Source of the DNA: an uncultured Clostridia bacterium
GTDB taxonomy: Bacteria; Bacillota; Clostridia; Oscillospirales; Acutalibacteraceae
DNA length: 56,688 bases
Direction: 5' to 3'
NCBI GenBank assembly: GCA_947169745.1
Contig: CAMVQZ010000006.1
Coordinates: 1-56,688, forward strand
Shown: in pieces, positions 1 through 53,035 of the stretch
How the letters are laid out: every line of letters begins with the position of its first letter
Position numbering within the stretch: position 1 is the stretch's first letter
The notes under the pieces: model-generated
Database searches by the model: none
Told to the model about the DNA's origin: nothing
The model's input: only the letters and a program-made list of their open reading frames with translations
Program-made: the position numbers and the translations under genes

Positions 1-429
1 ATAGAGAGCGGAGGCACTCCGCCGCCGGATGCCGCGCGACGAGAGTATATGTACGTACGACAGAGCGAGTGTAAACGAGCGATAACGCGAATTGCTCAGT
101 GCGAGCACGCACCGCGAACACGGGTGCAGCGTCACGCTGCCCGGATGCCGCGCGACGAAAGTAAAAATACGCACGACCGAGCGAGTGCAAACGAGCGATA
201 ACGCGAAATAGAGAGCAAAGGCACTGTGCAGGCGCTCTGTGCCGAGAAAGTGATATGATAACCAGCCGCAAGAAGCAGCCTGTGAGGGCTGCGGCGGCGA
301 GGGGTGGGAGCATTGTCTGAGGCACTATGCGCCGGATGCCGCGGCACGGTAGTTTATATACGTACGACAGAGCGAATGGAATGAGCGATAATGCGAACAT
401 GGGTCCAGCGTCACGCTGGTCGGCGCTGC
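1..429 (+). repeat. Modular intergenic repeat, locus 1 (upstream of nnr)
   Basis: This gene-free 5' stretch is filled by repeat modules seen at eight other places in the window. Core C copies lie at 25-91, 141-207 and 332-397; each starts CCGGATGCCGCG (allowing small changes) and ends GAGCGATAACGCGAA or nearly so. A T unit lies at 92-118 (CTCAGTGCGAGCACGCACCG). Palindromic P modules (GCAGCGT-C-ACGCTGC type) lie near 126-140 and 403-419. An M module lies at 229-331 and carries the hairpin GCAGCC-tgtga-GGGCTGC. The array ends at about 429, and the -35 box of the nnr promoter begins at 430. Open frames across it are Arg/Ser-rich shadows of the repeats, not genes. The repeat nature is seen directly; function is unknown. 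Confidence 0.88.
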
Positions 430-458
430 TTGAAATATTCTAAAATACGTGATAGAAT
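430..458 (+). promoter_or_regulatory. Sigma-A promoter for nnr
   Basis: TTGAAA at 430-435, a 17-bp spacer and TAGAAT at 453-458, with TGA directly before the -10 (extended -10). It abuts the repeat array that ends at about 429. Confidence 0.75.
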
Positions 459-519
459 ATCAATAGAAATTGAGTACTCTGCGGCGGCAGAGGCTCTGAA
501 TTATGCGGGGTGAAATTTT

Positions 520-2040
520 ATGATAGTTGTAGAAAGCGGAGAAATGAAGATCATGGAGAGAGATGCCATCAGACAAGGGGTGTCATTGTCCTCGCTGATG
601 GAGCAGGCAGGAGCTGCGGTTGCGGAGCTTGCTGCAAAGCTTATCACGCAAAAAAAGCTGAAAAACATAACCGTGCTCTGCGGAAAAGGCAATAACGGCG
701 GAGACGGCTTTGTAATTGCGAGATTTCTTTCCCTGATGTGCAATGTTACTGTAATAATCGCAAGTGAAAATCCCGAAACAGACCTGGCAAAGCTTAATTT
801 CAACCTTATTCCCGATAAGGTCAATATTCTTTACCACACCTCCCAGAGAGAAGAATGCGCGGATGTAATAATCGGCTCGGATATGATAATAGATGCTATT
901 TACGGCATCGGCTTCAAGGATATACTGGATCCCGACAGCACAGAGCTGGTCATCCGCAGCAATATGAGTACCGCTATCAAGATCGCTGTAGACATTCCCA
1001 GCGGAATAATATGCAATACCGGCGAGATACTTGGAGATTGCTTCCACGCCGATTATACAGTGACCTTTACAGCACTGAAACCCCTTCACGTTCTTTACCC
1101 CTCAATGGATTACTGCGGCGAGGTCACAGTCGCAAAAGTAGGTATCCCCCAGAATATAGTGGATATGTGTACCTACGCAATGAAAACCACTGACGAATAT
1201 ATTGAAAAACATCCCATAAAGCCTCTGGCAAAATCTGCTCATAAAGGGACAAACGGAACCCTTCTCTCTGTCTGCGGAAGCTACGGAATGTCCGGCGCGG
1301 CAGTTCTTTCCGGAATGGCAGCTCTGAGAAGCGGCGTCGGCATACTCAAATCCGCTATTCCGAAATCCATATATCCCATCGTTGCCGGAAAACTGACAGA
1401 AGCTGTTTTCCTGCCCCTGGAGGAAACTGAGGACGGTCTGATCAGCATTGATGATTTTGATAAACTCCAGATGGAAATACTGAACAGAGCCTCCGCTGTA
1501 CTTATCGGATGCGGCCTGGGACAGAACGATGATATGGGAGACCTGGTATCCGCACTCATAACCACTTCCACAAAACCGGTGGTTCTTGACGCCGATGGTA
1601 TAAATGCTATTGCGGCGAATATAGATGTATTAAGACAGTCCTATGCCCCCATTATCCTCACACCCCACCCCGGAGAAATGGCAAGGCTCACAAGTACAGA
1701 TACACAGACTGTCCAGAAAAACAGATACAGCACCGCCCGGAATTTTGCTTCGGAATTCGGTGTCACTGTGGTATTGAAAGGAGCAAACACCATAATAGCC
1801 CTGCCTGACGGAAATGTCTATGTTAACCTCACAGGTAATAACGGAATGGCAAAGGGCGGAAGCGGAGATATTCTCGCAGGTCTTATGGCTTCCTTCCTCG
1901 CTCAGGGTATGAATTATGATGAGGCTGCCATCAATGCGGTATATTATCATGGCCTTCTGGGAGATAAATGTTCCGAAAAATTCTCTTCGAGAACTATGCT
2001 CCCCAGTGATATGCTGGATGCGATACCGGAGGTGCTCTGA
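520..2040 (+). CDS. nnr: Bifunctional NAD(P)H-hydrate epimerase / ADP-dependent NAD(P)H-hydrate dehydratase
   Basis: Repairs hydrated NADH/NADPH: the N-terminal YjeF_N domain (about residues 1-215) epimerises R-NAD(P)HX to the S form, and the C-terminal kinase-fold domain (about 225-500) dehydrates it using ADP or ATP. Visible N-domain motifs are GKGNNGGDGFVIARF, AIYGIGF and DIPSGI. C-domain motifs are TPHPGEMARL, VLKGANTII and the catalytic GGSGDILAG loop. The length, 506 aa, is normal for the fused form. The ATG at 520 follows a GGGGTGA Shine-Dalgarno. The next gene starts 25 bp downstream, so the two are probably cotranscribed. The family call is secure. Confidence 0.95.
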   Translation: MIVVESGEMKIMERDAIRQGVSLSSLMEQAGAAVAELAAKLITQKKLKNITVLCGKGNNGGDGFVIARFLSLMCNVTVIIASENPETDLAKLNFNLIPDKVNILYHTSQREECADVIIGSDMIIDAIYGIGFKDILDPDSTELVIRSNMSTAIKIAVDIPSGIICNTGEILGDCFHADYTVTFTALKPLHVLYPSMDYCGEVTVAKVGIPQNIVDMCTYAMKTTDEYIEKHPIKPLAKSAHKGTNGTLLSVCGSYGMSGAAVLSGMAALRSGVGILKSAIPKSIYPIVAGKLTEAVFLPLEETEDGLISIDDFDKLQMEILNRASAVLIGCGLGQNDDMGDLVSALITTSTKPVVLDADGINAIAANIDVLRQSYAPIILTPHPGEMARLTSTDTQTVQKNRYSTARNFASEFGVTVVLKGANTIIALPDGNVYVNLTGNNGMAKGGSGDILAGLMASFLAQGMNYDEAAINAVYYHGLLGDKCSEKFSSRTMLPSDMLDAIPEVL

Positions 2041-2065
2041 CAGTACCGGAAAGGGAGGCGTTTGA

Positions 2066-2521
2066 TTGAAAAAAGCCATCTCAGCCGCTCTGGCTCTGAC
2101 AGCTGCTTTAGGTCTTTGCTCATGCGGCAGTCCCAGAAGCGACCTCCGGGTAAACATTCCGGAGGGTACAGTGTGCAGGATAACCGAAAAGGACAAAAGC
2201 TGCAGGGTCAGGATAAGCTATGTTTCAGAGGACACAAACACATTGACTGTCACTGAGCCGGTGGAATTATCCGGACTCAGTCTGAGACAGGCCGGGGACA
2301 CCTTTTCCCTGTCCCTGGGAGGAATGATCTGCCGGGGAGACCAGCCGGCGCTTCCGGAGAGCTCTGTGCTTATGAAAGCGATGGCTGCAATTAAGAAACT
2401 GAATTCACTGCCGCCGGATATTTCTTCTGACCGGGAAAGTGACGGCAGCATCACCTCTGACGCTCTGGGGTTTTCATTTAAAACTGACGGATCCGGAAAG
2501 CTGACGGAATTAAATTTCTGA
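2066..2521 (+). CDS. Small putative lipoprotein
   Basis: A 151-aa protein that begins with TTG at 2066, chosen because GGGAGG lies about 8 bp upstream and the frame opens straight into a signal peptide. The signal is Lys-Lys plus a hydrophobic stretch and a lipobox-like LCSC that puts the lipidated Cys at residue 20, so the mature protein should be anchored on the outer face of the membrane. The remainder is small and mostly beta-like, with no motif I recognise. It follows nnr by 25 bp. Function is unknown; a link to nnr is only positional. Confidence 0.75.
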   Translation: MKKAISAALALTAALGLCSCGSPRSDLRVNIPEGTVCRITEKDKSCRVRISYVSEDTNTLTVTEPVELSGLSLRQAGDTFSLSLGGMICRGDQPALPESSVLMKAMAAIKKLNSLPPDISSDRESDGSITSDALGFSFKTDGSGKLTELNF

Positions 2522-2560
2522 AAAAACAGGTCCGTCGCAAAAAGAAAAGTTTCGCCACCC

Positions 2561-2603
2561 AAAAAAATCAGTCATTTTCAATGCAAAGCGAAAAAATGAC
2601 TGA
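2561..2603 (-). terminator. Rho-independent terminator for the mntP transcript
   Basis: An 11-bp stem TCAGTCATTTT (2568-2578) pairs with AAAATGACTGA (2593-2603). Read on the minus strand it is followed by seven T residues (2561-2567). It lies about 160 bp beyond the mntP stop. On the plus strand there is no T-tract, so it serves the minus strand. The rest of 2522-2760 shows no gene. Confidence 0.75.
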
Positions 2604-2760
2604 CAGAAAACATAAAAATCCGGTGAATCCAACAGTTCATCGGCTTTTGTTTGTGTTACTGAATTTCTCTTATTGCGACAGACCCATTATTATTTTTATT
2701 CTTTTATACTTTGATTTCAACACGCAAGGACAGAACCATGGGACATACCTTGCGGTCAAA

Positions 2761-3351: not shown

Positions 3352-3403
3352 TTTCTGTTATGCCTCCTAAAATATATCCGAAGATGTGTTCCACTGAAAA
3401 AAT

Positions 3404-4630: not shown

Positions 4631-4681
4631 AATTATTACCTCTCGATCAATTCATTTACATCCTGAGACATCTATAAATAT

Positions 4682-4710
4682 ATATTATCCTAAATCCTCC
4701 AAATATTCAA
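4682..4710 (-). promoter_or_regulatory. Sigma-A promoter for the 408-aa gene
   Basis: On the minus strand, TTGAAT (4705-4710), a 17-bp spacer and TAATAT (4682-4687). Its -35 lies about five bases from the palindrome CAGCGTCGACGCTG at the edge of repeat locus 2. Confidence 0.6.
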
Positions 4711-4714
4711 CCCC

Positions 4715-5000
4715 AGGCAGCGTCGACGCTGCCGAATCGCTCAGTGCGAGCACGCACCGCGAACACGGGTGCAGCGTCACGCTGCTAAAATAATTCTGGT
4801 AGAAAGCAGGCGCTCACTATCAAGGGAGTGAAAAGCCGTAAGTCAGAATAAGCCAGCCGCAAGAAGCAGCCTGTGAGGGCTGCGGCGGCGAGGGTAGGGA
4901 GTATTATCCGGGGTAGTGTGCGCCGAATGCCGCGCCACGAGGGTATCGGTACGCACAACAGAGCGAGAGTAGCGAGCGATAACGCGAACACGCACCGCTG
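4715..5000 (+). repeat. Modular intergenic repeat, locus 2 (upstream of the EAL gene)
   Basis: Fills most of the gap between two divergent genes. In order: perfect palindrome CAGCGTCGACGCTG (about 4718-4731), a T unit (4736-4763), a P palindrome (about 4771-4785), an M module starting AGGCGCTC (4807-4922) with the GCAGCC/GGGCTGC hairpin, a core C (4923-4988, ending GCGATAACGCGAA) and a truncated T unit. The EAL promoter begins at 5004. The flank before M (about 4788-4806) also matches the flank at 32015-32036, so the repeat unit extends left of AGGCGCTC. Confidence 0.88.
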
Positions 5001-5003
5001 GGG

Positions 5004-5033
5004 TTGATTTTGGTGTGAATTATGTGATATAAT
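5004..5033 (+). promoter_or_regulatory. Sigma-A promoter for the EAL gene
   Basis: TTGATT (5004-5009), an 18-bp spacer and TATAAT (5028-5033), with TGA before the -10. It begins about 4 bp after the repeat ends. Confidence 0.75.
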
Positions 5034-5072
5034 TTTTAAAGAAGAAAAAAGATCGAAACGGGAGGTGAAGGT

Positions 5073-6998
5073 ATGGAGAAGCTGCTGTATTTCGACTATG
5101 CGGCTCTGATAGTGGATATAGTTCTTTTATTCTGTATAATCCTGAGAAGAATGGTACACGGCAAAATGAACAGGATATTCCTTTTTGTGGTCTGTACCTC
5201 AACCTTTACCTGCGCTATGGATATCATTGCCGTTCAGTATGATAACAGCGGAATGTATTATCTTACCGAAAAAATGATCTTTCATTCCGCATATCTGACA
5301 ATGAGGGCTTTCACTTCCTTTTTCCTGCTGAATTATATAATCGCACTCACCGATACCTGGTTCCGGTTTGAAAAAAGTATGATAAAGAGAACCGCTATAT
5401 ACCTTCCTGTTCTGATACTTCTTGCGATGATAATTGCAAATTTCTTTGCCGGAAATATGTTCTATATAGACAGCAATGGAACTTACACACGAGGAAGCAG
5501 TTTCATAGCCCTGTATATTGTAAGCGCCTATTATGCCCTTTATGGCTTTTCAAAGATCTTTCGTGAAAGACGTATGCTTGATACGGGAAAGACCATCTCT
5601 TTATATGCAGGATTTATGATTATTGTAGTGGCGGCAATTGTTCAGTTGATATTCCCGAGGGTTCTTGTAGATATGTTCTCATCCTCGATATCCACTCTGT
5701 TTATTTTTATGATGGTACAGAGACCGGAGGAAAATATCGACGGGGAAACAGGTCTGCTCAGGCTGGGCACATATGACAATGATATAAACCGCAGCTTCCA
5801 TAACAAAAAACCTGAGACCATCATAATGATAAAGATAACAAATGCGGATACTATCAATAATATGCTGGGCTACAGAGATAATGTTAAATTCAAAAGAGCC
5901 CTGTCCGATCAGATAATAAAGAAACTGAAAAGCGAAAAGATTTCCGCAGATGTTTATTGTATCGGCCCCGGTGATTTCCGGATAAAGCTGGAAAGACGCT
6001 TCCGGAAGCACGCACCTCCGCTGGCTGAATATTTCAACAACAAATGGAAACAGCCCTTTGAATACAAGGGAATCAGCGTAAACGTCCTTGCGTGCATCTG
6101 TATTGTGAATATTCCGGATGAAATAGATAACAAAAGCTCTCTTATACTTTTAGGAGATATGATAGGAAGCATCCACAGCGGAAATGTTATCACGGCATCT
6201 GAGCTGAAAAACAGGATCGATAATAATGTTGTCAGGGATATGGATATGATAATCGAAACCGCCATTGCGGAGGATCGCTTTGAGGTTTATTATCAGCCCA
6301 TATATTCTCTGAAGGAAAAACGCTTCAACTCTGCAGAGGCTCTTCTCAGGCTCAAGGATAAAAAATACGGTTTTGTATCTCCGGAGCTTTTTATTCCTGC
6401 CGCAGAAAAAACCGGTTCCATTCACAAAATCGGAAATATCGTAATGGAGACTGTATGCCGGTTTATAGGCAGCGACGAATTCAGCGGGCTGGGTATAGAT
6501 TATCTGGAGGTGAATCTGTCGCCTGTACAGTGTCTCGAAAATGACCTGGCGCCGAATATCATAGATACAATGGAGAGAAACAAGGTGCTGCCGGAGCAGA
6601 TAAATCTTGAGATAACAGAAACTGCTGCGGATGAATTGCAGAGCACCATCATAGAAAACATCAGCACTCTCCACAATGCAGGGGTAGCATTTTCTCTGGA
6701 TGATTTCGGAACGGGATATTCCAATATGACCAGGATAGCCTCTCTTCCTTTCAGGATGATAAAGCTGGACAGGAGCTTTGTAGCTCTTAAGGACAATCCG
6801 AATTACTCCATAGTACTTGAAAATCTTGTAAAAATGATAAAATCCCTTAATATGAAAATAGTTGTAGAGGGCGTTGAAAACGAGGACGCTGTGTATAAAT
6901 TCACCGAGTTGGGATGTGAATTTATACAGGGCTATTACTATTCAAGACCTCTCCCAAAAAATGAATTTATAAGCTTTATCAGATCACACGCAAAATAA
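5073..6998 (+). CDS. Membrane-bound EAL-domain c-di-GMP phosphodiesterase with degenerate GGDEF
   Basis: A 641-aa protein. The first 217 residues hold about seven transmembrane helices, a likely sensor. Residues about 235-390 match the GGDEF fold but read GPGDF where the active-site motif should be, so diguanylate cyclase activity is unlikely. Residues about 395-638 are an EAL domain with a complete-looking active site: EALLRL, LEVNLSP, LEITETA, LDDFGTGYS, IKLDRSF, VVEGVEN and the final QGYYYSRPLP. It should hydrolyse c-di-GMP at the membrane in response to an unknown signal. The ATG follows GGGAGGTGAAGG. No cyclase with an intact GGDEF lies in the window. Confidence 0.93.
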   Translation: MEKLLYFDYAALIVDIVLLFCIILRRMVHGKMNRIFLFVVCTSTFTCAMDIIAVQYDNSGMYYLTEKMIFHSAYLTMRAFTSFFLLNYIIALTDTWFRFEKSMIKRTAIYLPVLILLAMIIANFFAGNMFYIDSNGTYTRGSSFIALYIVSAYYALYGFSKIFRERRMLDTGKTISLYAGFMIIVVAAIVQLIFPRVLVDMFSSSISTLFIFMMVQRPEENIDGETGLLRLGTYDNDINRSFHNKKPETIIMIKITNADTINNMLGYRDNVKFKRALSDQIIKKLKSEKISADVYCIGPGDFRIKLERRFRKHAPPLAEYFNNKWKQPFEYKGISVNVLACICIVNIPDEIDNKSSLILLGDMIGSIHSGNVITASELKNRIDNNVVRDMDMIIETAIAEDRFEVYYQPIYSLKEKRFNSAEALLRLKDKKYGFVSPELFIPAAEKTGSIHKIGNIVMETVCRFIGSDEFSGLGIDYLEVNLSPVQCLENDLAPNIIDTMERNKVLPEQINLEITETAADELQSTIIENISTLHNAGVAFSLDDFGTGYSNMTRIASLPFRMIKLDRSFVALKDNPNYSIVLENLVKMIKSLNMKIVVEGVENEDAVYKFTELGCEFIQGYYYSRPLPKNEFISFIRSHAK

Positions 6999-7996: not shown

Positions 7997-7998
7997 CT

Positions 7999-10060: not shown

Positions 10061-10110
10061 GCCGCAGCGGAGTGCCTGTCCTGTCGATTTGCAGCAACGT
10101 GACGCTGCCT
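10061..10110 (-). repeat. Decayed remnant of the modular repeat, locus 3
   Basis: Contains GGAGTGCCT, CTGTCGATT and a broken P palindrome (ACGTGACGCTGCC). These are the same words, in the same order, as the linker at 11228-11249 plus a P module. Orientation points toward the 9907 gene. No intact core C. The flanks on both sides (9986-10060 and 10111-10175) show nothing else I can support. Confidence 0.55.
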
Positions 10111-10175: not shown

Positions 10176-11039
10176 CTACAGCAATGCGCCCTGCTGTCCG
10201 CCGCACAACTCTCTCAAAAGCAGCTCAAAGCACAAGCCGTCCTGGGGCGGAGTTTCCAGCTTTTCTGTTATCCTTATCGCATCCAGTACAAAATCCGAGG
10301 ATCTTTCCACTGCCTCCTCCAGAGCATCTCCGCAGACAAGCCTGGAAGCCAGCACCGCGGCAAAAACATCTCCCGTCCCTGCTCTTTCGCAGCCAATGGA
10401 TGGAGCTGCTACGACAGAATATGAGCCGTCCCGTTTATATATAAAATTGCAGATACTGCCGCTCTTTTTTATTCCGGTAATCACGATATCCCGGCTTCCG
10501 GCCGATCTTAGCTTTTCCGAGATCATTAAAAGCTCCGGTATCTCACATATATTTTCGTTATACGGTATACCAGTCAGGATACAGGCTTCTGTCAGATTCG
10601 GGGTCAGGACATCAGCCCTTGCGGCAAGCCTGCGGAGGCTCCTGCAATGCTCCGAAGTAAGTGTAGCATAGATCCTGCCGTTATCCCCCATTACCGGGTC
10701 AACGATGATGTGGGTTTCATTTCCCGCAAACCTGTCTATGAAATCCTCTACGATAGCTATCTGTCTGACAGAACCCAGAAAGCCGGTATAGATCGCATCA
10801 AAGCTGAGGTTCAGTTTTTCCCATTTTGAATAGTAGACCGACATCTTATCTGTATAATCGTCAAAGAAATAATCCTCATATCCTGTATGATTGGAGAGTA
10901 CAGCCGTGGGTACCGCACAGCACTGTATACCCGCAGCGGATATTATCGGTATCGAAACACTCAGAGAACATCGTCCGAAACCGGAAAAATCATTTATGAC
11001 CGCAATTTTTTTCTGTTTTGATATGGTCAAATACATCAC
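10176..11039 (-). CDS. pdxK: Pyridoxal/pyridoxamine kinase
   Basis: A 287-aa ribokinase-fold enzyme that phosphorylates pyridoxal, pyridoxine or pyridoxamine with ATP in vitamin B6 salvage. Key signs: INDFSGFGRCSLSVSIPI at the N-terminus (substrate loop), VLSNHTGYED, VDPVMGDNG, LTPNLTEACILTG, and GTGDVFAAVLAS containing the catalytic Asp. Length is typical of the PdxK/PdxY group; I cannot separate the two names with certainty. The start is ATG at 11039; an in-frame ATG one codon later is possible. It is transcribed divergently from an ECF substrate-binding component, which suggests a shared role in B6 uptake and trapping. Confidence 0.88.
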   Translation of the reverse strand: MMYLTISKQKKIAVINDFSGFGRCSLSVSIPIISAAGIQCCAVPTAVLSNHTGYEDYFFDDYTDKMSVYYSKWEKLNLSFDAIYTGFLGSVRQIAIVEDFIDRFAGNETHIIVDPVMGDNGRIYATLTSEHCRSLRRLAARADVLTPNLTEACILTGIPYNENICEIPELLMISEKLRSAGSRDIVITGIKKSGSICNFIYKRDGSYSVVAAPSIGCERAGTGDVFAAVLASRLVCGDALEEAVERSSDFVLDAIRITEKLETPPQDGLCFELLLRELCGGQQGALL

Positions 11040-11063: not shown

Positions 11064-11093
11064 ATAATAGTATAAACCCCTCCCCCCTGTCAA
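11064..11093 (-). promoter_or_regulatory. Sigma-A promoter for pdxK
   Basis: On the minus strand, consensus TTGACA (11088-11093), an 18-bp G-rich spacer and TATTAT (11064-11069). The -35 starts about 14 bp after the repeat T unit ends. Confidence 0.7.
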
Positions 11094-11106: not shown

Positions 11107-11382
11107 AGCGGTGCGTGCTCGCACTGAGCGATTCGGCAGCGTGACGCTGCACCCTTGTTCGCGTTATCGCTCGTTTACTCTCGCTCTGTTGTGCGTATAT
11201 AAACTACTGTGCCGCGGCATCCGGCGGCGGAGTGCCTCCGCTGTCGATTCGCGTTATCGCTCATTCCATTCGCTCGATTATGCGTACATATACCCTCGTT
11301 CCGCGGCATCCCTTACGGGCTGCTTTTTGCGGCTGGTTTTATTCCGATATAAATAAACACTCCCTGGGCGCTAAGTGCCTGA
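11107..11382 (-). repeat. Modular intergenic repeat, locus 4 (between pdxK and the ECF gene)
   Basis: Read toward pdxK: a scrambled M module (11313-11382, with AGCCGC and CACTCCCTG words), core C (11248-11312), linker containing CGGAGTGCCTCCG, core C (11158-11224), P palindrome GCAGCGT-G-ACGCTGC (about 11137-11151) and a T unit (11107-11133). The T end faces the pdxK promoter, as at the other loci. The same array separates two divergent transcripts. Confidence 0.85.
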
Positions 11383-12072: not shown

Positions 12073-12453
12073 TTATGGTAGTTACTTCGCTCCTTTCTTA
12101 CAGTAAGCTCTTGCGTAATGGATGTTCTTACGGCCTTCAATTATTATGTGCAAAAAAACAGGCGCTCGGTGTCAGGGGAGTGAAATACCGGAAATCAGAA
12201 TAAACCAGCCGCGGAAAGCGGCCCGTAAGGGCTGCGGCGGCGAGAGGCGGGGTTATTGTCTGAGGCACTCCGCGCCGGATGCCGCGCGACGAGAGTATAG
12301 TTAAACACAACCGAGCGAGTGTAAGCGAGCGACTACGCGAACACGCTCAGTGCGAGCACGCACCGCGAACATGCTCAGTGCGGGCACGCACCGCGAACAC
12401 GCTCAGTGCGGGCACGCACCGCAAACATGCTTACTGCGGGTACGCACCTGCTG
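12073..12453 (+). repeat. Modular intergenic repeat, locus 5: the most complete copy (upstream of rimP)
   Basis: Starts about 10 bp after the ECF gene. In order: leader module L (about 12073-12158, with AGTAAGCTCTTGCG), module M (12159-12274, AGGCGCTC start, nested CCGC/GCGG and GC hairpin), core C (12275-12341), then four tandem T units of 28 bp (12342-12369, 12370-12397, 12398-12425, and a diverged fourth from 12426). T units share CTCAGTGCGGGCACGCACCG. The rimP -35 lies 25 bp further on. There is no coding signal in 12063-12578. Confidence 0.9.
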
Positions 12454-12477: not shown

Positions 12478-12506
12478 TTGCATATTTTAAAAATATGTGA
12501 TAGAAT
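12478..12506 (+). promoter_or_regulatory. Sigma-A promoter of the rimP-infB operon
   Basis: TTGCAT (12478-12483), a 17-bp spacer and TAGAAT (12501-12506), with TGTGA directly before the -10 (extended -10). Confidence 0.8.
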
Positions 12507-12578: not shown

Positions 12579-13058
12579 ATGGCAAAGAAAAAGAGCGGCA
12601 ATACCGTCGCAGGGGTCTCGGAGCTTGTCCGTCCTATAATTGAAGCTATGGGTCTGACGCTCTGGGATGTAAGGTATGTCAAGGAAGGTGCGGTGTGGTA
12701 TCTGCGGATATTCATTGACAAGGACGAAGGAGTCACAATTGAGGATTGTGAGGCCGTCACAAGGGCTGTAAACGATCCTTTGGATAGGCTTGACCCCATT
12801 GAGGGCAGCTACTGCCTTGAGGTGTCCTCGCCGGGAATCGAAAGAGAGCTTGTCACCGATGAGCATTTCGACAGGTTTCTGGGGGCTCCGGTAATGATAA
12901 AGCTTATCAGACCGGACGAAAAAGGAGAGAGAGAGCTCAAAGGAACTCTTATATCCCACGATAAAGACAGTGCAGTAATCATGTCCGAAAACGGGGAGGA
13001 AAGAGTAATAAAGAAAAAGGATACTGTATATATTAAACTGGATGATTTTAATATTTAA
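12579..13058 (+). CDS. rimP: Ribosome maturation factor RimP
   Basis: A 159-aa protein needed for assembly of the 30S subunit. It shows the RimP pattern: LGLTLWDVRYVKEG-like N-domain strands, LRIFIDKDEGVTIEDCEAVTRA, YCLEVSSPGIERELVTDEHF, and a C-terminal SH3-like domain (KGTLISHDKDSAVIMSENG). The ATG at 12579 follows GGAGGAG. It is the first gene of the translation operon, and nusA follows after 18 bp. Confidence 0.95.
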   Translation: MAKKKSGNTVAGVSELVRPIIEAMGLTLWDVRYVKEGAVWYLRIFIDKDEGVTIEDCEAVTRAVNDPLDRLDPIEGSYCLEVSSPGIERELVTDEHFDRFLGAPVMIKLIRPDEKGERELKGTLISHDKDSAVIMSENGEERVIKKKDTVYIKLDDFNI

Positions 13059-18579: not shown

Positions 18580-20964
18580 TTACAGCTTTTTCAGATTTGC
18601 ATAATTAGCCATCAGCTTTTTGGTTCCGACGGTATCAAAGGCGACCTCCAGAAGAGAATCCGCACCCATCGGGGTAACGTTTATTATCATTCCATCGCCG
18701 AATCTCTTGTGGGAAACTCTCATTCCCGGATAATAACTCCCAGTACCCGTAGATTGCTGTTGTCTGCCGGATATAATCCGGGTCATTTCCATATCCGTTC
18801 TTCTTTTTTCTTTTTTTATTTCCAGTCCAGCTCCTGTTCCCCACTGTGGAGCAGCCTCAGACTGCTGTTCTTCTATCAGTTCCTCAGGTATTTCCGAGAT
18901 AAAGCGGGAGGGCTTGTTATAATTGGTCTTTCCGAAAAGGGTTCTTGACCGGGAGGATATGAGGCAGAGCTGTTTCTTTGCTCTTGTTATTCCCACATAT
19001 GCCAGCCGGCGTTCCTCCTGCATTTCGGTAGAGGACAGGGTAGAGAGATATCCAGGAAAAGTATTCTCCTCCATTCCGGGGATGAATACATTATCAAATT
19101 CCAGCCCCTTTGCCGAGTGCAGTGTCATCAGAACCACCCTGCCCTCAGCCTCTGCCGAATTATAATTATCTATATCCGTCATCAGAGCGATTTCCTCCAG
19201 GAAGCCCTGAAGATCTGCATTGTCCGGATTATCCTGCTCATAGCGCATAATACCTGAGCGAAGCTCCCGGATATTCTCCACAGCCTCCTCGCCGTGGTCG
19301 CTTTCCTTCAGGATAAAGGGGATATATCCGGTCTTTTCCACCAATCGGTCATACATATCAGAAACAGGCATACCTGATTCAAGGAGATCGGACATTTCAT
19401 CAATAATCCCCGCAAAAGCAGCAAGCTTGGATTTGCTTTTTGTCAGAGCGTCAAAATCCTCTGCCTGTCTGATCGTTTCAAACATACTCTGTCCCAGCAT
19501 ATTTCCGATTTCTTCTATCTGGGATACGGTCTTATCGCCTATTCCTCGTTTAGGAATATTGATTATTCTTTTCAGTCTTGTGTTATCGTTATGGTTGCTG
19601 ATAACGCTGAGATATGCCACCATATCCCTTATTTCCCGTCTTTCATAGAATCGTCTGCCGCCGATTATCCTGTAGGGAACAGCCGCTCTTACCAGCGCAC
19701 GCTCAATGCTCTGGGACTGGGAATTCATTCTGTAAAGAACAGCAAAATCCGAATAATCTCCGCCCTCAGAGACCTTTTCAGTTATTGTATTGACGATGAA
19801 CCGGCTTTCGTCTCTTTCGTCCGAAGCCTTATAGAGAATGATCTTTCCGCCTTTTTCATTATCAGTCCAGAGGGTCTTGTTTTTGCGTGAGGTATTATTT
19901 TTTATAACGCCGTTTGCAGCATCCAGGATATTTTTGGTAGAGCGGTAGTTCTGTTCAAGCTTTATAACTGTGGTATCGTCAAAGGTGCTTTCAAAATCCA
20001 GTATATTCCTGATCGTAGCGCCCCGAAAGCTATAAATGCTCTGGTCGTCATCTCCCACAACGCAAAGGTTGCCGTGGGTCTGGGAAAGCAGACGCACAAG
20101 CTCATACTGCATATGATTTGTATCCTGATATTCGTCCACCATAATGTACATGAACTGGCTGCTGTATTTTTCTCTCACCTCCGGAAAATCCCGTAGAAGA
20201 ACCACAGTATTGAAGATCATATCGTCAAAGTCCATAGCATTTGCCTTTATGAGCCTGTCCTGATACATGGAGTATACCCTTGATACAGACAAAAGCCTGC
20301 TGTCTCCCTCAGCAGTCTCCGCAAAATCCTCCGGCGCAAGCATATTATCCTTTGCATTGGAAATCTCTCCCAGCACCATTTTTACAGGAATAAGCTTTTC
20401 GTCAATATTGAGGCTCTTCATACATTCCTTTATAAGTCGCTTCTGATCGTCTGTGTCGTATATTGTAAAATGCTCCGTATATCCGAGAAAATGGGCACAC
20501 CTGCGCAAAATCCTTCCGCAAGCGCTGTGAAAGGTAGACGCCCATATATCAAGACCCTTTTCTCCGATTTTTTTACATATTCTTTCCTTCAGCTCATTTG
20601 CCGCCTTATTAGTAAAGGTTATGGCAAGTATCCTCCACGGTGCCGGAGCTGAGACAGAAAGCCTTTCAGCCAGCTCCTCGCGCAGAGGTATATTTTCTTC
20701 AGCAGACCTGCGTATCTCCTCTATTTCCTCGCTGCTGTATTCTCCGTATACTATATCTGTTTCACACGCTTTTCCCCATTTTATGATATTTGCTATCCTG
20801 TTGACAAGCACCGTCGTCTTTCCGCTGCCTGCCCCGGCAAGTATCAGCAAAGGACCGCTCACTGAATATACCGCCTTCTGCTGCATATCATTGAGCTCCC
20901 TGAATTCGTTTTCGATTATCCTTAACCTCAGAGCCGCAAGCTCCCTGTAAAGCTCCTTATCCAA
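18580..20964 (-). CDS. pcrA: ATP-dependent DNA helicase PcrA/UvrD
   Basis: A 794-aa superfamily 1A 3'-5' helicase for repair and rolling-circle replication. Motifs in order: AGAGSGKTTVLVNRI (Walker A), ITFTNKAANELKERI, VDEYQDTNHMQYE (motif II), GDDDQSIYSFRGA (III), LEQNYRST (IV), LMTLHSAKGLEFDNVFIPG (V), and RRLAYVGITRAKKQL (VI). A C-terminal Tudor-like segment (GMRVSHKRFGDGMI) is the RNA-polymerase-binding end seen in PcrA. The start is TTG at 20964 with an AGGACGAGG site. It has its own promoter abutting a repeat array. Confidence 0.95.
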   Translation of the reverse strand: MDKELYRELAALRLRIIENEFRELNDMQQKAVYSVSGPLLILAGAGSGKTTVLVNRIANIIKWGKACETDIVYGEYSSEEIEEIRRSAEENIPLREELAERLSVSAPAPWRILAITFTNKAANELKERICKKIGEKGLDIWASTFHSACGRILRRCAHFLGYTEHFTIYDTDDQKRLIKECMKSLNIDEKLIPVKMVLGEISNAKDNMLAPEDFAETAEGDSRLLSVSRVYSMYQDRLIKANAMDFDDMIFNTVVLLRDFPEVREKYSSQFMYIMVDEYQDTNHMQYELVRLLSQTHGNLCVVGDDDQSIYSFRGATIRNILDFESTFDDTTVIKLEQNYRSTKNILDAANGVIKNNTSRKNKTLWTDNEKGGKIILYKASDERDESRFIVNTITEKVSEGGDYSDFAVLYRMNSQSQSIERALVRAAVPYRIIGGRRFYERREIRDMVAYLSVISNHNDNTRLKRIINIPKRGIGDKTVSQIEEIGNMLGQSMFETIRQAEDFDALTKSKSKLAAFAGIIDEMSDLLESGMPVSDMYDRLVEKTGYIPFILKESDHGEEAVENIRELRSGIMRYEQDNPDNADLQGFLEEIALMTDIDNYNSAEAEGRVVLMTLHSAKGLEFDNVFIPGMEENTFPGYLSTLSSTEMQEERRLAYVGITRAKKQLCLISSRSRTLFGKTNYNKPSRFISEIPEELIEEQQSEAAPQWGTGAGLEIKKEKRRTDMEMTRIISGRQQQSTGTGSYYPGMRVSHKRFGDGMIINVTPMGADSLLEVAFDTVGTKKLMANYANLKKL

Positions 20965-21003: not shown

Positions 21004-21032
21004 ATTTTACAACAATTCCAACCCAAGTGCAA
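21004..21032 (-). promoter_or_regulatory. Sigma-A promoter for pcrA
   Basis: On the minus strand, TTGCAC (21027-21032), a 17-bp spacer and TAAAAT (21004-21009). The -35 starts about 12 bp after the last repeat T unit. Confidence 0.6.
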
Positions 21033-21044: not shown

Positions 21045-21600
21045 GCGGTGCGTGCTCGCACTGAGCGATTCGCGTTATCGCTCATTTCATTCGCTCGGTC
21101 GTGTGTACATATACTCTCGTGGCGCGGCATCCGGGCAGCGTGACGCTGCACCCTATTTCGCGTTATCGCTCGTTTACACTCGCTCGGTTGTGTTTAACTA
21201 TACTCTCGTGGCGCGGCATCCGGGCAGCGTGACGCTGCACCCTATTTCGCGTTATCGCTCGTTTACACTCGCTCGGTTATGTTTAACTATACTCTCGTCG
21301 CGCGGCATCCGGCGCTCATAGCATCAGACAATACTCCCACCCCTCGCCGCCGCACCCCTTACGGGCTGCTATTCGCGGCTGGTTTATTCCGACTTCAGGC
21401 ACATCACTTCCTTGACAGCAAGCGCCTGTTTTTTCAGAACCATTTTACACTGACGTCAGCAGCGTCGACGCTGGACCCCTTACGGGCTGCTTTACTTTGA
21501 CTTCAGGCATCTGACTTCCCTGTCACTGAGCACCTGGTTTTGTAGTCAGTATCCGTCATGCACAAGTTTACTATAATACCACTACTTTCCATTTTCAATT
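21045..21600 (-). repeat. Modular intergenic repeat, locus 6: the longest array (upstream of pcrA)
   Basis: Read toward pcrA: leader L (about 21600-21531), partial M ending in palindrome CAGCGTCGACGCTG (21530-21460), full M (21428-21313), core C copies 21312-21246, 21223-21157 and 21134-21069, P palindromes between the cores, then a T unit (21068-21045). Two neighbouring cores with their P linkers are nearly identical (89-bp period), a recent tandem duplication. The array starts at the end of the acyltransferase gene and fills the whole gap of 630 bp. No gene is present. Confidence 0.88.
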
Positions 21601-32014: not shown

Positions 32015-32066
32015 TAAAATTATTCCGGAAGAAAGCAGGCGCTCAGTGCGGGCACGCACCCGCTGA
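32015..32066 (+). repeat. Short chimeric copy of the modular repeat, locus 7
   Basis: The left flank GAAAGCAGGCGCTCA (32031-32045) is the start of module M as at 4802-4816, but it passes directly into a T unit (GTGCGGGCACGCACC), skipping the rest of M and the core. It ends 6 bp before the -35 of the broken lipoprotein gene. Confidence 0.75.
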
Positions 32067-32071: not shown

Positions 32072-32100
32072 TTGACTGGCTATTCGCCTTGTGTTAGAAT
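32072..32100 (+). promoter_or_regulatory. Sigma-A promoter for the broken lipoprotein gene
   Basis: TTGACT (32072-32077), a 17-bp spacer and TAGAAT (32095-32100). The promoter looks intact although the gene is not. Confidence 0.7.
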
Positions 32101-40276: not shown

Positions 40277-42130
40277 ATGAAGAAGATCCAGAAAATGTTT
40301 TCCCTGTTATTATCCGGAGCAATAATTGCCGGCAGTGCTTTATGCTGCAGTTCTGTTGCGTATGCCGAAGCTGATCTGAAGATAAGCAGAGGACTGTTCT
40401 CCGCAGGCGTAGGAGAGACTGTGAGGCTCTCCGCAAACAAGGCCGTTACCTGGCGTACCTCCGAAAGCAGCATACTGACCGTGGATCAGAGCGGTTCTGT
40501 AAAGGCAGTTAACAAGGGCACTGCCTGGATCACAGCAAGAGACCAGAAGGGAACGGAAAAAAGCTGCCGGATAAACGTGAAAAACGCTCCGGAAAGCGTT
40601 CGTATATCAAAAAGCATCATCAGTATCGGGACAGGAGAATCCGGTGATCTTTCTTCCATTATCCCGGAAGGCTCCGCAGCCTCTCTGAGAACCTTCCGCA
40701 CCAGCGACAGCAGCATCGTCAGAATGACAAAGACAAACTGGACTGGAGAATTTACTGCTGTAAAAACGGGTACCGCATGGGTGACTGTCAGGACGTATAA
40801 CGGAAAAGAAGCCTCCTGCAGGGTCACAGTAAAGAAAGCCCCCAAAAGCGTTAATATTTCAAAAAAGACTCTGACACTGGGGCTGGGTGAGAGCTATTCC
40901 CTCTCCTCCTCTGTTCCGGCTGATTCCGCATCCGGCAGCAGAAGCTTCCGCACCAGCGACAGCAGCATCATCAGAATGACAAAGACAAACTGGACGGGAG
41001 ATTTTATCGCTGTAAAAGAAGGCACAGCCTGGGTAACTGTCAGGACGTATAACGGAAAAGAAGCCTCCTGCAGAGTTACAGTAAAAAAGGCCCCAAAAAG
41101 CGTTAATATTTCAAAAAAGACTCTGACACTGGGACTGGGTGAGAGCTATTCCCTCTCCTCCTCTGTTCCGGCTGATTCCGCATCCGGCAGCAGAAGCTTC
41201 CGCACCAGCGACAGCAGCATCATCAGAATGACAAAGACAAACTGGACGGGAGATTTTATCGCTGTAAAAGAAGGCACAGCCTGGGTGACTGTCAGGACAT
41301 TCAACGGAAAAGAAGCCTCCTGCAGGATAACAGTAAAAAAAGCTCCCAAAAGCGTCTCCATCAACAAAACCAGCATCAGGCTCCGGGTGGGAGAAAAGGC
41401 CTCTCTCTACGCTGTCCTCCCGGAGGGCTGCGGATGTGCCTCCAGAATATTCCGTTCCAGTGATAACGATATAGTAAAACTCACCCGAAGTGAGTGGACA
41501 GGAGAATTTACCGCTGTAAAAGAAGGCACAGCCTGGGTGACTGTCAGGACATTCAACGGAAAGGAAGCCTCCTGCCGCATTGATGTAAGCAATAAGCCGG
41601 TAAAGACAGTGGTAAACGGAGTCACATATTTTGACGGAGTTCTTGTAGTTAACAAAACATACTCCATACCCTCGTGGTACGGCAACGGTCTTGACCCCAC
41701 TGCACATTCCGCTTTCAGAAAAATGGCAGATGACGCTGAGGATGACGGCATATACCTCTATATCGTTTCCGGCTTCCGCAGCTACTCTCTCCAGGATTCC
41801 ATCTATCATAATTTCGTGAGCGAAAGAGGAGTTGCCGGAGCAGACAGGGTATCCGCAAGACCCGGCCATTCCGAGCACCAAACAGGCCTTGCGATGGATA
41901 TAAACAGCACAGCCTTCAGCTTTGCGGATACTGCAGAAGGACACTGGCTGGCTAAAAACTGCTGGAAATACGGCTTTATCATCAGATATCCTCAGGGCAA
42001 AGAAAGTATAACCGGATATGCATACGAAAGCTGGCATATCAGATATGTGGGAAAGGAGCTTGCGGAAAAACTCTTCCGTTCCGGAAAAACTCTGGAAGAA
42101 CACTTCGGCATAACCTCAGAATACCAGTAA
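40277..42130 (+). CDS. Secreted Ig-like repeat protein with VanY-type D-Ala-D-Ala carboxypeptidase domain
   Basis: A 617-aa protein with a signal peptide (about 1-30, ending AYAEA), then one short and four full bacterial Ig-like (BIG2) units of 84 aa, each closing with the pattern GTAWVTVRTYNGKEASCR, then a peptidase M15B domain (about 440-617). Zinc ligands are visible in SEHQTGLAMDIN (His and Asp) and ESWHIRYVG (His). It should trim D-Ala from peptidoglycan stems outside the cell, with the Ig units acting as spacer or wall binder. Two of the 84-aa units are nearly identical at DNA level (252-bp period). Strong AGAAAGGAG site. Confidence 0.93.
   Translation: MKKIQKMFSLLLSGAIIAGSALCCSSVAYAEADLKISRGLFSAGVGETVRLSANKAVTWRTSESSILTVDQSGSVKAVNKGTAWITARDQKGTEKSCRINVKNAPESVRISKSIISIGTGESGDLSSIIPEGSAASLRTFRTSDSSIVRMTKTNWTGEFTAVKTGTAWVTVRTYNGKEASCRVTVKKAPKSVNISKKTLTLGLGESYSLSSSVPADSASGSRSFRTSDSSIIRMTKTNWTGDFIAVKEGTAWVTVRTYNGKEASCRVTVKKAPKSVNISKKTLTLGLGESYSLSSSVPADSASGSRSFRTSDSSIIRMTKTNWTGDFIAVKEGTAWVTVRTFNGKEASCRITVKKAPKSVSINKTSIRLRVGEKASLYAVLPEGCGCASRIFRSSDNDIVKLTRSEWTGEFTAVKEGTAWVTVRTFNGKEASCRIDVSNKPVKTVVNGVTYFDGVLVVNKTYSIPSWYGNGLDPTAHSAFRKMADDAEDDGIYLYIVSGFRSYSLQDSIYHNFVSERGVAGADRVSARPGHSEHQTGLAMDINSTAFSFADTAEGHWLAKNCWKYGFIIRYPQGKESITGYAYESWHIRYVGKELAEKLFRSGKTLEEHFGITSEYQ
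40847..41350 (+). repeat. Near-identical 252-bp tandem repeat inside the Ig/VanY gene
   Basis: AGCGTTAATATTTC begins units at 40847 and 41099, and most bases match across 252 bp (84 codons). It encodes two adjacent Ig-like units. Flanking units are more diverged, so this pair is the latest duplication. Confidence 0.85.
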
Positions 42131-43026: not shown

Positions 43027-43107
43027 GCGGTCGGTGTTTCTGCGTATCTGAGTTTTTTTCTGAGGCGACAGTCTCTGCAGGCATGCCTCCGGCACGGGAC
43101 AAAACGG

Positions 43108-43270
43108 GGCGCGTGCTCGCGCTGAGCAATTCGCGTCATCGCTCGCTTGCACTCGCTCGGTTGTGCTTAAATATACTGCCGTGCGCAGCGACAGGAGAGC
43201 ATAGGAACGCACGACAGAGCGAATGGAATGAGCGATAACGCGAACACGCTCAGTGCGAGCACGCACCGCA
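43108..43270. repeat. Modular repeat, locus 8: inverted pair upstream of the 43.4 kb gene
   Basis: The left half (minus orientation) is a T unit (43108-43129) and partial core (43130 to about 43187). The right half (plus orientation) is a partial core (about 43192-43244, ending GCGATAACGCGAA) and a T unit (43245-43270). Together they form an imperfect inverted repeat of about 160 bp that could fold into a large cruciform. The plus half ends 13 bp before the -35 of the next gene. The rest of 43027-43355 holds no gene. Confidence 0.83.
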
Positions 43271-43282: not shown

Positions 43283-43311
43283 TTGATTATTTTTTTTAAA
43301 TATGATAGAAT
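43283..43311 (+). promoter_or_regulatory. Sigma-A promoter for the 43.4 kb gene
   Basis: TTGATT (43283-43288), a 17-bp spacer and TAGAAT (43306-43311) with TGA before the -10. Confidence 0.75.
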
Positions 43312-43355: not shown

Positions 43356-44012
43356 ATGGAAAAACTAATGGATCTTGGCAGAATGGATAACTATTATGAG
43401 CAGATAGTGAAGAAGCGCTTCACACCCGGAAGATTGTTTTCCCTGATAATGTATCTGGGCGGTATCGTGCTTGTTATCTTCACCTGCTTCTTTCTGGGGG
43501 GAATAGATGAAAAATTCGGATTTCTTATTCCCATTTCTCTCATACTCCTTGCTTTTGGCATATGGCTTGCATACTATATCATAAAGAATTCCGGCGTCGA
43601 ATATGAATACACCTTTGTTCTCGGAGAAATGAGGATAGAAAGAATAAAAGGCAAATCAAAACGTAGAAAAATAACGGCATTTGATATCAAAGCCATTGAC
43701 GATATCGGAAGATATCTCGATCTGGAAACTGGCAACAGAAACGTAGATCCCTCAAAATTCCCCCTCGTACTCAGAGCAGAGGAAAATGAGATCTTCACCA
43801 ACACATATTATGTTGTCATCCACGATAAGATCCGCCACCAGCCTGCCCTCCTGCTTTTCAGCCCGAATGAAACCACTCTTGAAAAGCTGAGACCCTTCCT
43901 TTCAATAGAGCTGAAAAAGAAATATATCCAGATCAAAAAGGAAAACGACGAGCTGGCTGAAAAAAGAGAACGGGAAGCAGCTGCAAAAAAAGCACAGGCA
44001 AAAGAAAAATAA
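43356..44012 (+). CDS. Two-TM membrane protein of unknown function (DUF6106-like)
   Basis: A 218-aa protein. Two adjacent transmembrane helices lie at about 30-50 and 58-78 (LIMYLGGIVLVIFTCFFLGG, then a Leu/Ile-rich helix), followed by a cytoplasmic domain with strands EYTFVLGEMRIERIKG and a Lys/Glu/Ala-rich coiled tail. The arrangement resembles small clostridial PH-like membrane proteins; I believe it fits DUF6106, with moderate certainty. AAGGAG lies upstream of the ATG at 43356. It has its own promoter and terminator. Confidence 0.7.
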   Translation: MEKLMDLGRMDNYYEQIVKKRFTPGRLFSLIMYLGGIVLVIFTCFFLGGIDEKFGFLIPISLILLAFGIWLAYYIIKNSGVEYEYTFVLGEMRIERIKGKSKRRKITAFDIKAIDDIGRYLDLETGNRNVDPSKFPLVLRAEENEIFTNTYYVVIHDKIRHQPALLLFSPNETTLEKLRPFLSIELKKKYIQIKKENDELAEKREREAAAKKAQAKEK

Positions 44013-47263: not shown

Positions 47264-47524
47264 TTTTCAGCCTTCCTTTTCAGTATGATCTTATTGCCGA
47301 TAACACAAAATCATTATCAATCGAATATCAATACTGATACCTGATAAAGAACAGACAGCCGCCGGTGTCTGTCAGGAATCAGTATAACATTTCTGTCCTG
47401 CGGATTTTGATATTTTATATCCCCGAGGAGAATATCCCTTCTCCTCTACTCTTAAAGTATATGTTATTGATGGGTTTTTGTCAATGAAGATACAAATACA
47501 AATATAAAAAATTATTAAAATCCA

Positions 47525-47553
47525 TTGTATATTTGGCAATTTTCGTATATAAT
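47525..47553 (+). promoter_or_regulatory. Sigma-A promoter for the 47.6 kb gene
   Basis: TTGTAT (47525-47530), a 17-bp spacer and TATAAT (47548-47553). The rest of the divergent gap 47264-47590 has two hairpins (ACAGACA/TGTCTGT near 47350; GAGGAGAA/TTCTCCTC near 47430) but no gene. Confidence 0.75.
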
Positions 47554-47595
47554 CATATTATATGGGCTTTTGCACCCAAAAAGGAGGTAATGGAT

Positions 47596-48276: not shown

Positions 48277-48278
48277 TA

Positions 48279-49013: not shown

Positions 49014-49050
49014 GATATATTCAAAAGAAATAATTATGAGGTGAATACCA

Positions 49051-52000: not shown

Positions 52001-52077
52001 AGAAGATCGGCAGGAACGACCCCTGTCCCTGCGGAAGCGGCAAAAAATACAAAAAGTGCTGCGGCGCAAACAAATGA
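49051..52077 (+). CDS. secA: Preprotein translocase ATPase SecA
   Basis: A 1008-aa motor that drives proteins through SecYEG. Motifs: [20 protein letters not shown] (Walker A), [20 protein letters not shown] (Walker B), [40 protein letters not shown], and [17 protein letters not shown]. The helical scaffold and wing are present. A long acidic C-terminal linker (about 890-975) ends in a complete SEC-C zinc motif ([13 protein letters not shown]) for SecB or ribosome contact. It is longer than the usual 840-900 aa mainly through acidic inserts. Ends at a strong hairpin. Confidence 0.98.
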
Positions 52078-52087
52078 TATGATACGA

Positions 52088-52122
52088 GCCGCCGACGAGA
52101 TAAGATCGTCGGCGGCTTATTT
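52088..52122 (+). terminator. Terminator after secA
   Basis: GCCGCCGACGA (52088-52098) pairs with TCGTCGGCGGC (52106-52116), followed by TTATTT. Confidence 0.8.
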
Positions 52123-52139
52123 GGAATATGGTGACTTTT

Positions 52140-52784
52140 ATGAAAAAGACGATTATCTTTCTGATACTTGCCGCAGCTTTGTTATCAGCTGCCGGGTGTT
52201 CTGCCGAAAAAGATAAAACAGAAAAAAAGACCTCCCTTCCCTCCTCCTCTGTTGCCAGCGAGGATGTGAGCAAAGAGGAGATAAAGCCTGTTTCTTCTTC
52301 TCTCACTTCTCCCCTTTCTGCAGAAGAATGGGGATCCGCCGCTAAATTTTCCACTGCAGACAACAAATACTACAATGTTCCTATCCGGGTAACAGCAGTC
52401 ACCACAGGGAGTGACGCAGAAAAGCAGGTAAAAACCTTTATGCAGGAAAACGAAACCTACAGCTACAAGTCTCCTGAAAAAGGGATGGAGTGGGTTGTCA
52501 TTGAATATGAGATATCCCTTGACAGCTTTCCAACTGACAAGACCGGCACGGATGCAGCGATAACGGCATTTATAAGCTCCGGTGACGGAAGCCCGGTCAG
52601 AAAAGGCAGTGATATGGCAGGTATATCCACAATAAATATGACAGACGGCAAATACAGCTTTGAGGGCAAAGTCAAAGGCAGGAGTGCATTTGAAATGTTT
52701 ACCGGGGTAAAGGATTATGTCGTAGCCTTCGGAGAATATGGTGAAACGCAGGCCTTCTTCTCCCCTTCCTCCCCGACGGGGTAA
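52140..52784 (+). CDS. Putative lipoprotein with DUF4352-like beta domain
   Basis: About 214 aa. I use the ATG at 52140 (MKKTIIFLI) because it opens a clean signal peptide; an in-frame ATG at 52128 would add four residues. The lipobox is AAGC (Cys at 20). A Ser/Lys/Glu linker is followed by a beta-sandwich domain, with AAKFSTADNKYYNVPIRVTA, EWVVIEYEISLDSF, and final KDYVVAFGEYGE, resembling DUF4352-type lipoproteins. Role unknown. It lies immediately beyond the secA terminator and before repeat locus 9. Confidence 0.75.
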   Translation: MKKTIIFLILAAALLSAAGCSAEKDKTEKKTSLPSSSVASEDVSKEEIKPVSSSLTSPLSAEEWGSAAKFSTADNKYYNVPIRVTAVTTGSDAEKQVKTFMQENETYSYKSPEKGMEWVVIEYEISLDSFPTDKTGTDAAITAFISSGDGSPVRKGSDMAGISTINMTDGKYSFEGKVKGRSAFEMFTGVKDYVVAFGEYGETQAFFSPSSPTG

Positions 52785-52862
52785 AAGTGAACGGACAATA
52801 ACGAAAAAACGGAAAGTGGAAAATATAATAAAAATGAATACTGAAAACTGAAAAATTAATAA

Positions 52863-53035
52863 TAATGGTTGTCACTCCTATTATAGTAAGCTTATGCGAA
52901 ACAGTAGTATTTTCGGCATTTGATCATTATAAACACAAAAAATGCGCTCAGTGACGAGAGAGTGGAATGCAAGAAGTCAGAATAAACCAGCCGCAAGAAG
53001 CAGCCTGTGAGGGCTGCGGCGGGCAGCGTCTATTA
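52863..53035 (+). repeat. Truncated modular repeat, locus 9 (upstream of the TIR gene)
   Basis: Leader L (about 52863-52945, with TATAGTAAGCTTATGCG) passes into module M (52946-53035, with ACCAGCCGC and the GCAGCC-tgtga-GGGCTGC hairpin). The copy stops there: no core C and no T unit. The TIR gene -35 lies 14 bp further. It shares the L-M junction with locus 5. The rest of 52785-53135 holds no gene. Confidence 0.82.

Follow-up and report, generated by a model that had tools for sequence, protein, structure and literature searches.

Several families of small interspersed repeats have been described in bacteria. Repetitive extragenic palindromic (REP) sequences and bacterial interspersed mosaic elements (BIMEs) are presented in one account as short palindromes outside genes, often in more than 100 copies, with species-specific spelling and with RAYT transposases (PMC2817692). 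BOX of Streptococcus pneumoniae is modular (boxA-boxB-boxC), 67–637 bp long and foldable, carries terminal inverted repeats and target duplications, and has reported effects on neighbouring genes; the same source gives pneumococcal repeats as overrepresented between convergent genes, miniature inverted-repeat transposable elements (MITEs) as rich in AT and bounded by terminal inverted repeats and target duplications, and small bacterial repeats as often regarded as parasites that the host tolerates at sites of little damage (PMC3049150). Here we describe a family of GC-rich hairpin repeats in a 56,688-nt stretch of DNA (the window), which is the entire contig C6 of an uncultured bacterium whose 2.53-Mb genome is assembled in 177 contigs. 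The host is probably a Ruminococcus-type bacterium, the genus name being taken from one named relative. A sequence-only reading of the window had pointed out nine intergenic loci built from modules in the order L-M-C-T/P, each directed at the 5′ end of a gene. Our analysis puts the probability at roughly 0.5 that the family is a non-autonomous, REP-like repeat of hairpins that was either inserted at the upstream promoter edge or retained there. Such a position is unusual for small bacterial repeats, and the literature searched, mostly outside subscription journals, described neither a Ruminococcus family of this kind nor repeats abutting −35 boxes.

Architecture and position of the repeat

The whole 2.53-Mb genome contains 317 near-matches to the C core (at most two mismatches) and 186 to the T core (at most three), compared with one match each for the reversed patterns used as control. 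The element at 4715–5000 has 92 BLAST matches within its own genome and weak or short partial matches in 9 of 60 relatives. Architecture was studied in a sample of 784,886 nt, composed of the window and stretches of contigs C1–C5 and C7–C16 picked regardless of repeats; it represents 31% of the genome and is biased toward the longest contigs. Genes were called with a codon-usage caller made for this analysis, and modules were called by profiles and patterns. The sample holds 45 L, 46 M, 82 C, 47 T and 44 P matches in 69 clusters, together 1.4% of the sequence, and the modules have 57.6% GC against 43.8% for the sample as a whole.

The module order proposed in the sequence-only reading, with losses and duplications, holds across these clusters. 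The commonest form is L-M-C-T/P (28 of 69), and the remainder are C+T/P (11), C alone (7), M+C+T/P (5), T/P alone (5) and other forms (13). Clusters that lack L and retain C or T/P number 31, those with L or LM and neither C nor T/P number five, and C is present in both orientations in eight. None of the 69 lies entirely within a called gene. Because near-identical copies occur at far-apart loci (L, 100%; C, 98.5%), the sequences argue for some recent spread or exchange.

Two further repeated stretches were noticed by eye. One (AGTAAGCT...) stands ahead of L at some loci, and the other (CCAGACACGAACAGACT...) replaces L-M before some C modules. The places noted are window 12073–12139, the similar stretch at window 52863–52940, and 17261–17350 of contig C14.

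The position of the repeat was compared with promoters predicted as sigma-A-type consensus matches, using a simple score with thresholds of 17 or 17.5. Of the 49 elements that have a gene ahead, 41 have a strong promoter within 110 nt of their T/P end; among control positions in gaps free of elements, matched for distance to the start codon, the figure is 198 of 980. With a score of at least 17 within 110 nt, promoters are found at 44 of 59 T/P ends, at 9 of 58 L ends read outward, in 29 of 2000 random genome stretches and in 20 of 1180 shuffles. A near-consensus −35/−10 pair comes after most T/P ends, and in 29 of the 44 promoter-facing T/P ends the −35 box begins 5–29 nt past the last detected module. 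The T/P end thus borders on the −35 box, which places the repeat ahead of the predicted promoter and outside the 5′ untranslated region.

Orientation is also mostly uniform. Fifty-two elements could be placed in gaps, 31 of them tandem, 17 divergent and 4 convergent. In tandem gaps, 28 of the 31 follow the gene direction; the three opposed cases are one lone C, one mixed-orientation array and the head-to-head pair at window 43108, whose promoter-side half does share the gene direction. Occupied gaps amount to 29 of 189 tandem, 17 of 53 divergent and 4 of 46 convergent. The fixed polarity that the sequence-only reading had seen is therefore real, but its target was misplaced: polarity is toward promoters rather than start codons, and the upstream promoter edge, overlooked in that reading, takes the place of the gene's 5′ end. 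As to the counter-evidence named there, orientation is not random, no cluster of the sample is wholly enclosed in a called gene, and Rfam gave no match. The many copies and strong polarity that it expected from a module profile scan are evident in the sample.

The same relation is seen from the promoter side. The sample contains 118 promoters scoring at least 17.5, and 40 of them have an element within 100 nt upstream. GG immediately precedes the −35 box in 15 of these 40 and in 3 of the 78 others. A GC-rich hairpin is found in the 60 nt before the −35 box of 29 of the 118 promoters, in the next 60 nt upstream of 3 and downstream of 1, and in 3.1% of random 60-mers. UP elements are A/T-rich contact sites just upstream of −35. 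The repeat occupies the same position with opposite composition, the 20 nt preceding −35 having a GC content of 0.56 with an element (40 promoters) and 0.27 without (78). A shared regulon was considered as the common factor and rejected, as the downstream genes (37 of 50 scanned) are mixed in function.

The T/P units are hairpins whose spelling differs while pairing is kept, with more than ten distinct stems. Units were excised by their linkers, so that pairing was not required, and stems of at least 5 base pairs were counted. Hairpins formed in 7 of 9 units of the own genome, in 17 of 21 of the relative G026 and in 4 of 5 of G007, compared with 1–9% of shuffles.

Filled and empty promoters among relatives

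The core of the pcrA promoter is similar in most of the congeneric genomes compared. It is filled, with a hairpin element in front, in the own genome, G015, G032 and G007; most of the others have AT-rich sequence at this place. In G019 a GC-rich stretch was scored as filled by eye, with no hairpin within 60 nt. Mapping the filled state onto a tree of PcrA from 24 species requires five changes, or four without the doubtful G019, and well-supported branches force at least three with or without it. G015 is filled, and G009, G005 and G003, in the same tree group, are not. Cross-species counts and tests, here and below, carry no correction for relatedness.

Seven further genes filled in the own genome were compared in G007, G015, G019 and G032 by reading and hairpin search. 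leuB is filled in the own genome, G015 and G032, has a damaged hairpin in G019 and a hairpin only farther away in G007. For yicC, the promoter of G015 is filled, that of G007 bears a scrap and that of G019 is empty. For miaB, G015 is filled and G007 empty, and neither G019 nor G032 shows a strong promoter. The remaining four, ilvD, prfA, purE and mreB, are empty in relatives (0 of 3, 0 of 3, 0 of 4 and 0 of 3 filled, respectively), and the own mreB element lies 97 nt from its −35 box. Among genes empty in the own genome, all four relatives also lack an element at amy and glgP, and an ATPase gene is filled in G007 only, its G015 promoter being weak. The rimP promoter is filled in the own genome and in G019 by different hairpins. 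An aminotransferase gene on contig C14 is filled in the own genome and empty in G063, and the DNA similarity between the two begins within 1 nt of the −35 box. Empty orthologous sites, which the sequence-only reading proposed to look for in relatives, were thus found between species (ilvD, prfA, purE, pcrA and the C14 aminotransferase gene).

Relatives also carry hairpin units that are spelled differently. Searched as patterns, two such spellings were matched in 15 of 41 congeneric genomes apiece, and neither the reversed control nor the own genome gave a match. Copy numbers are highest in G015 (154), G023 (88) and G029 (68) for one spelling and in G026 (92), G007 (86) and G018 (65) for the other. 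Sixty loci of these arrays yielded 50 distinct arrays with sufficient flank, and among the matches listed a promoter scoring at least 17 within 90 nt lies ahead of 15 of the 50 and behind none. The 15 come from at least seven species, including G015, where the link was already seen. Thirteen relatives were sampled in stretches for hairpins in the 60 nt preceding detected promoters; these occur, mostly spelled unlike the own ones, in 3 of 5 cases in G032, 4 of 40 in G007 and 1 of 4 in G015.

A related repeat was seen at loci L096–L126, mostly from isolate Lapin-005__bin22. There a palindromic AAGCCTTTGAAAAGGCTT stretch precedes C, and the hairpin units of about 27–28 nt form arrays in which no promoter link was seen.

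The spacer between the −35 and −10 boxes differs as well. In the own genome, a GGG run on the gene strand is present in 15 of 40 spacers with an element and 8 of 78 without (p = 0.001). CCC is not enriched there (0 of 40 with, 4 of 78 without). In G007 the GGG counts are 4 of 4 and 3 of 36 (p = 0.0004); numbers are small in G015 (1 of 1 and 1 of 3) and G032 (1 of 3 and 1 of 2). Among pcrA promoters, GGG occurs in 4 of 5 with a hairpin and 0 of 22 without (p = 0.0003), the fifth hairpin-bearing promoter being a mis-assigned box. Across ten genes in five species it occurs in 6 of 9 with an element and 7 of 34 without (p = 0.014). The prfA gene of G015 has the GGG run without an element. Window 11070–11087 is an example of a GGG-run spacer after an element.

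Origin of the repeat and rival explanations

We picture a modular repeat in which a C core is joined to short GC-rich hairpin units (T/P) and, optionally, to modules upstream. Spread of copies would depend on a machinery able to recognise the hairpins and to set them in a fixed direction at the upstream promoter edge. After insertion the hairpin units may multiply in tandem, and filling would cost a promoter the A-rich stretch at the usual place of an UP element. The mostly single orientation, the short distance to −35, the few convergent copies and the recurrence at one promoter favour targeting or selection at promoters over mere tolerance. Among the roles suggested in the sequence-only reading, the best fit to the interspersed copies, the filled and empty promoters and the mostly single orientation is a non-autonomous mobile element with insertion preference; an upstream regulator site is a possible alternative.

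Candidates for the enzyme were sought and rejected. The transposase search covered the Y1_Tnp family (PF01797, cognate to RAYT) and the IS110 family (PF01548); neither gave a match in the own genome, and 5 and 4 of 14 control genomes, respectively, were positive. The sole reverse transcriptase found (L273:1315–2514, own contig C88) is closest to the UG26 defence-associated reverse transcriptase (best PADLOC model RT_UG26, E = 2.4e-167). Many hairpin units are led by TTGACA, which suggested insertion with a duplicated −35 box. This idea was dropped because the unit leader does not follow the spelling of the box, as at miaB of G015 (leader TTGACA, −35 box TTGCAA). Carriage by phages or plasmids was searched with own-genome queries only, one C-core pattern against viral contigs and one element each against plasmids and phages, without a match.

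Several of these results weigh against a promoter-directed mobile repeat, namely the missing Y1 and IS110 transposases and the assignment of the only reverse transcriptase to UG26. To them can be added that target-site duplications and terminal inverted repeats were not identified, no systematic search having been made, and that only 1 of 6 linker-bounded units of G015 forms a hairpin. The three forced changes at pcrA may represent one gain and two losses. Because the PcrA proteins on the tree are only about 60–72% identical to the own one, the empty sites may be losses. The distribution among relatives is also uneven. No promoter scoring 17 lies ahead of 35 of the 50 genus arrays, and no hairpins lie within 60 nt upstream of the promoters detected (4 to 17 in each genome) in G019, G036, G018, G026, G017, G016, G002, G063, G020 and G023, with 0 of 16 in G026. 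Three of these, G018, G023 and G026, nevertheless hold 65, 88 and 92 unit copies, and the strong promoters listed in G018 and G026 have no clear repeat ahead. The promoter link is strong in some species and not seen in others, since 15 of 50 genus arrays face a promoter but only 8 of 44 C ends in G026-type arrays face a score of at least 17, some of these within the repeat.

The rival that fares best, possible though on the unlikely side, is a promoter module useful to the host, one that insulates, buffers supercoiling or binds a protein and is kept by selection. It would account for an element at 40 of 118 strong promoters, for pcrA being filled in scattered species and leuB in three genomes with a damaged copy in a fourth, for the GGG run that accompanies the element in the own genome, G007, pcrA and the ten-gene set, and for stems that vary in spelling while pairing is kept. 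It sits poorly with the mixed functions of the downstream genes and with the frequent absence of the element in relatives at ilvD, prfA, purE and mreB. Filled promoters, moreover, lack the A-rich upstream stretch, which is expected to weaken them.

A bolder reading is doubtful. It envisages a genus-wide promoter architecture in which the same housekeeping promoters acquired a hairpin cap in repeated, independent events, and in which this cap replaced the A-rich region and co-evolved with the spacer G-run, as a new form of promoter control or a DNA-structure-guided insertion system. A family on about one third of strong promoters (40 of 118) would mean either promoter-aimed transposition or an unrecognised layer of promoter control. 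Either reading can be put to the test, since relatives offer the same promoter in filled and empty form.

Random, untargeted insertion between genes, with harmful copies purged afterwards, appears improbable. The lack of clusters wholly inside called genes agrees with it, as does the excess of clusters that lost L and kept C or T/P (31, against five of the reverse), as if the promoter side were retained. However, convergent gaps, where the weakest purging is expected, are the least occupied (4 of 46), and the single orientation and short −35 distance are not easily explained by it.

A structured RNA, whether leader, riboswitch or small RNA, is very unlikely. RNAalifold gave an energy of −23.9 for 26 LMC copies, and 30 column shuffles averaged −6.8 (sd 3.5). 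However, the opposite strand folds equally well (−25.5) with zero pairs common to both strands. Because both strands give good energies without a common pair, neither strand nor RNA is supported, and the RNA reading of this result was abandoned. With a predicted promoter after the element in 41 of 49 cases, a transcript starting there would exclude the element, and by the predicted promoters the repeat does not lie between promoter and start codon as a 5′ leader or riboswitch would. Rfam returned tRNAs only for the window at gathering score, and no match up to E = 1 for 4700–5072. The structured element suggested in the sequence-only reading is upheld by hairpin units that fold above shuffles, a result that does not distinguish DNA from RNA.

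An artefact of the fragmented assembly, suggested by several element matches at contig ends, can be set aside, as many clusters lie inside contigs between called genes and hairpin arrays also occur in assemblies of other species.

Window loci and likeness to known repeats

Eight of the nine loci, namely 1–429, 4715–5000, 11107–11382, 12073–12453, 21045–21600, 32015–32066, 43108–43270 and 52863–53035, were recovered by repeat search and by profiles or patterns; the ninth, at 10061–10110, gave no cluster. The elements and their adjoining promoters are collected in the table.

Repeat elements and predicted promoters of the window (promoters as −35 box, spacer length in nt, −10 box)
Feature	Position	Strand	Details
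Element C-T-P-C-L-M-C	1–429	+	At contig edge; C 25–91, C 141–207, L 228–258, M 261–322, C 332–397; terminates in CCAGCGT...ACGCTGG hairpin
Promoter TTGAAA-17-TAGAAT	430–458	+	Directly after element 1–429; gene 520–2040 downstream
Element P-T-P-L-M-C, T fragment at end	4715–5000	+	L 4789–4846, M 4853–4913, C 4923–4988
Promoter TTGATT-18-TATAAT	5004–5033	+	Upstream of EAL-domain gene 5073–6998 (Pfam)
Hairpin scraps only	10061–10110	−	By eye; no cluster from profiles or patterns; no strong promoter alongside, by eye
Element M-C-C-P-T	11107–11382	−	M 11299–11337, C 11248–11311, C 11158–11224, T 11110–11128
Promoter TTGACA-18-TATTAT	11064–11093	−	Upstream of kinase gene 10176–11036 (Pfam)
Element L-M-C-T-T-T-T	12073–12453	+	L 12140–12198, M 12204–12265, C 12275–12341, T units up to 12448
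Promoter TTGCAT-17-TAGAAT	12478–12506	+	Upstream of rimP (12579–13058)
Element L-P-L-M-C-P-C-P-C-T	21045–21540	−	Repeat search and profiles/patterns
Promoter TTGCAC-17-TAAAAT	21004–21032	−	Upstream of pcrA/uvrD (18580–20964)
Chimera, 5′ part of L fused to T	32015–32066	+	Repeat search and profiles/patterns
Promoter TTGACT-17-TAGAAT	32072–32100	+	After chimera 32015–32066
Head-to-head pair	43107–43270	+	T-C on minus strand, then C-T on plus strand (43184–43267)
Promoter TTGATT-17-TAGAAT	43283–43311	+	Upstream of gene 43356–44012
3′-truncated element	52863–53035	+	Further stretch, L (52941–52980), M (52986–53023)
Promoter TTGATA-17-TATAAT	53049–53077	+	Upstream of gene 53136–56339

Gene 520–2040 encodes NAD(P)H-hydrate dehydratase and YjeF-N domains (Pfam). 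Gene 53136–56339 encodes TIR, TPR and RCC1-type repeat domains and contains tandem DNA repeats of 111 and 114 nt. Tandem repeats of 252 nt are also present at 40649–41575, within gene 40277–42130 (Ig-like domains and a VanY-type carboxypeptidase domain).

The family shares with REP and BIME a short palindromic unit, a location outside genes and a high copy number. By eye only, units of the form CGGGAG-hairpin-CGCGAA resemble the TGTGGGAGCGGGC-TGCCCGCGAA of the Pseudomonas putida REP (PMC2817692). Unlike REP, however, the own units lack the GT(A/G)G head and are led by CTCA, GGGT, GACAG or GAGAG (by eye); some units of relatives are led by GGGAG, a mere resemblance to the REP head, also judged by eye. 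No Y1 transposase was found in the own genome, the units sit at the upstream promoter edge, and they run mostly one way rather than alternating as in BIME, both C orientations being found in only 8 of 69 clusters. Like BOX, the family is a modular repeat outside genes with folding potential. The BOX terminal inverted repeats and target duplications were not identified here, where no systematic search was made, and unlike pneumococcal repeats the family is least frequent in convergent gaps (4 of 46). Like MITEs, the copies are short, interspersed and presumably non-autonomous, but the modules are GC-rich (57.6% in a sample of 43.8%) and ends of the MITE kind were not identified. Because the REP transposase, head and alternation were not found in the own genome and the position differs, the family is its own variant of the small interspersed hairpin repeats, set apart from REP/BIME and BOX by its place at the upstream edge of promoters.

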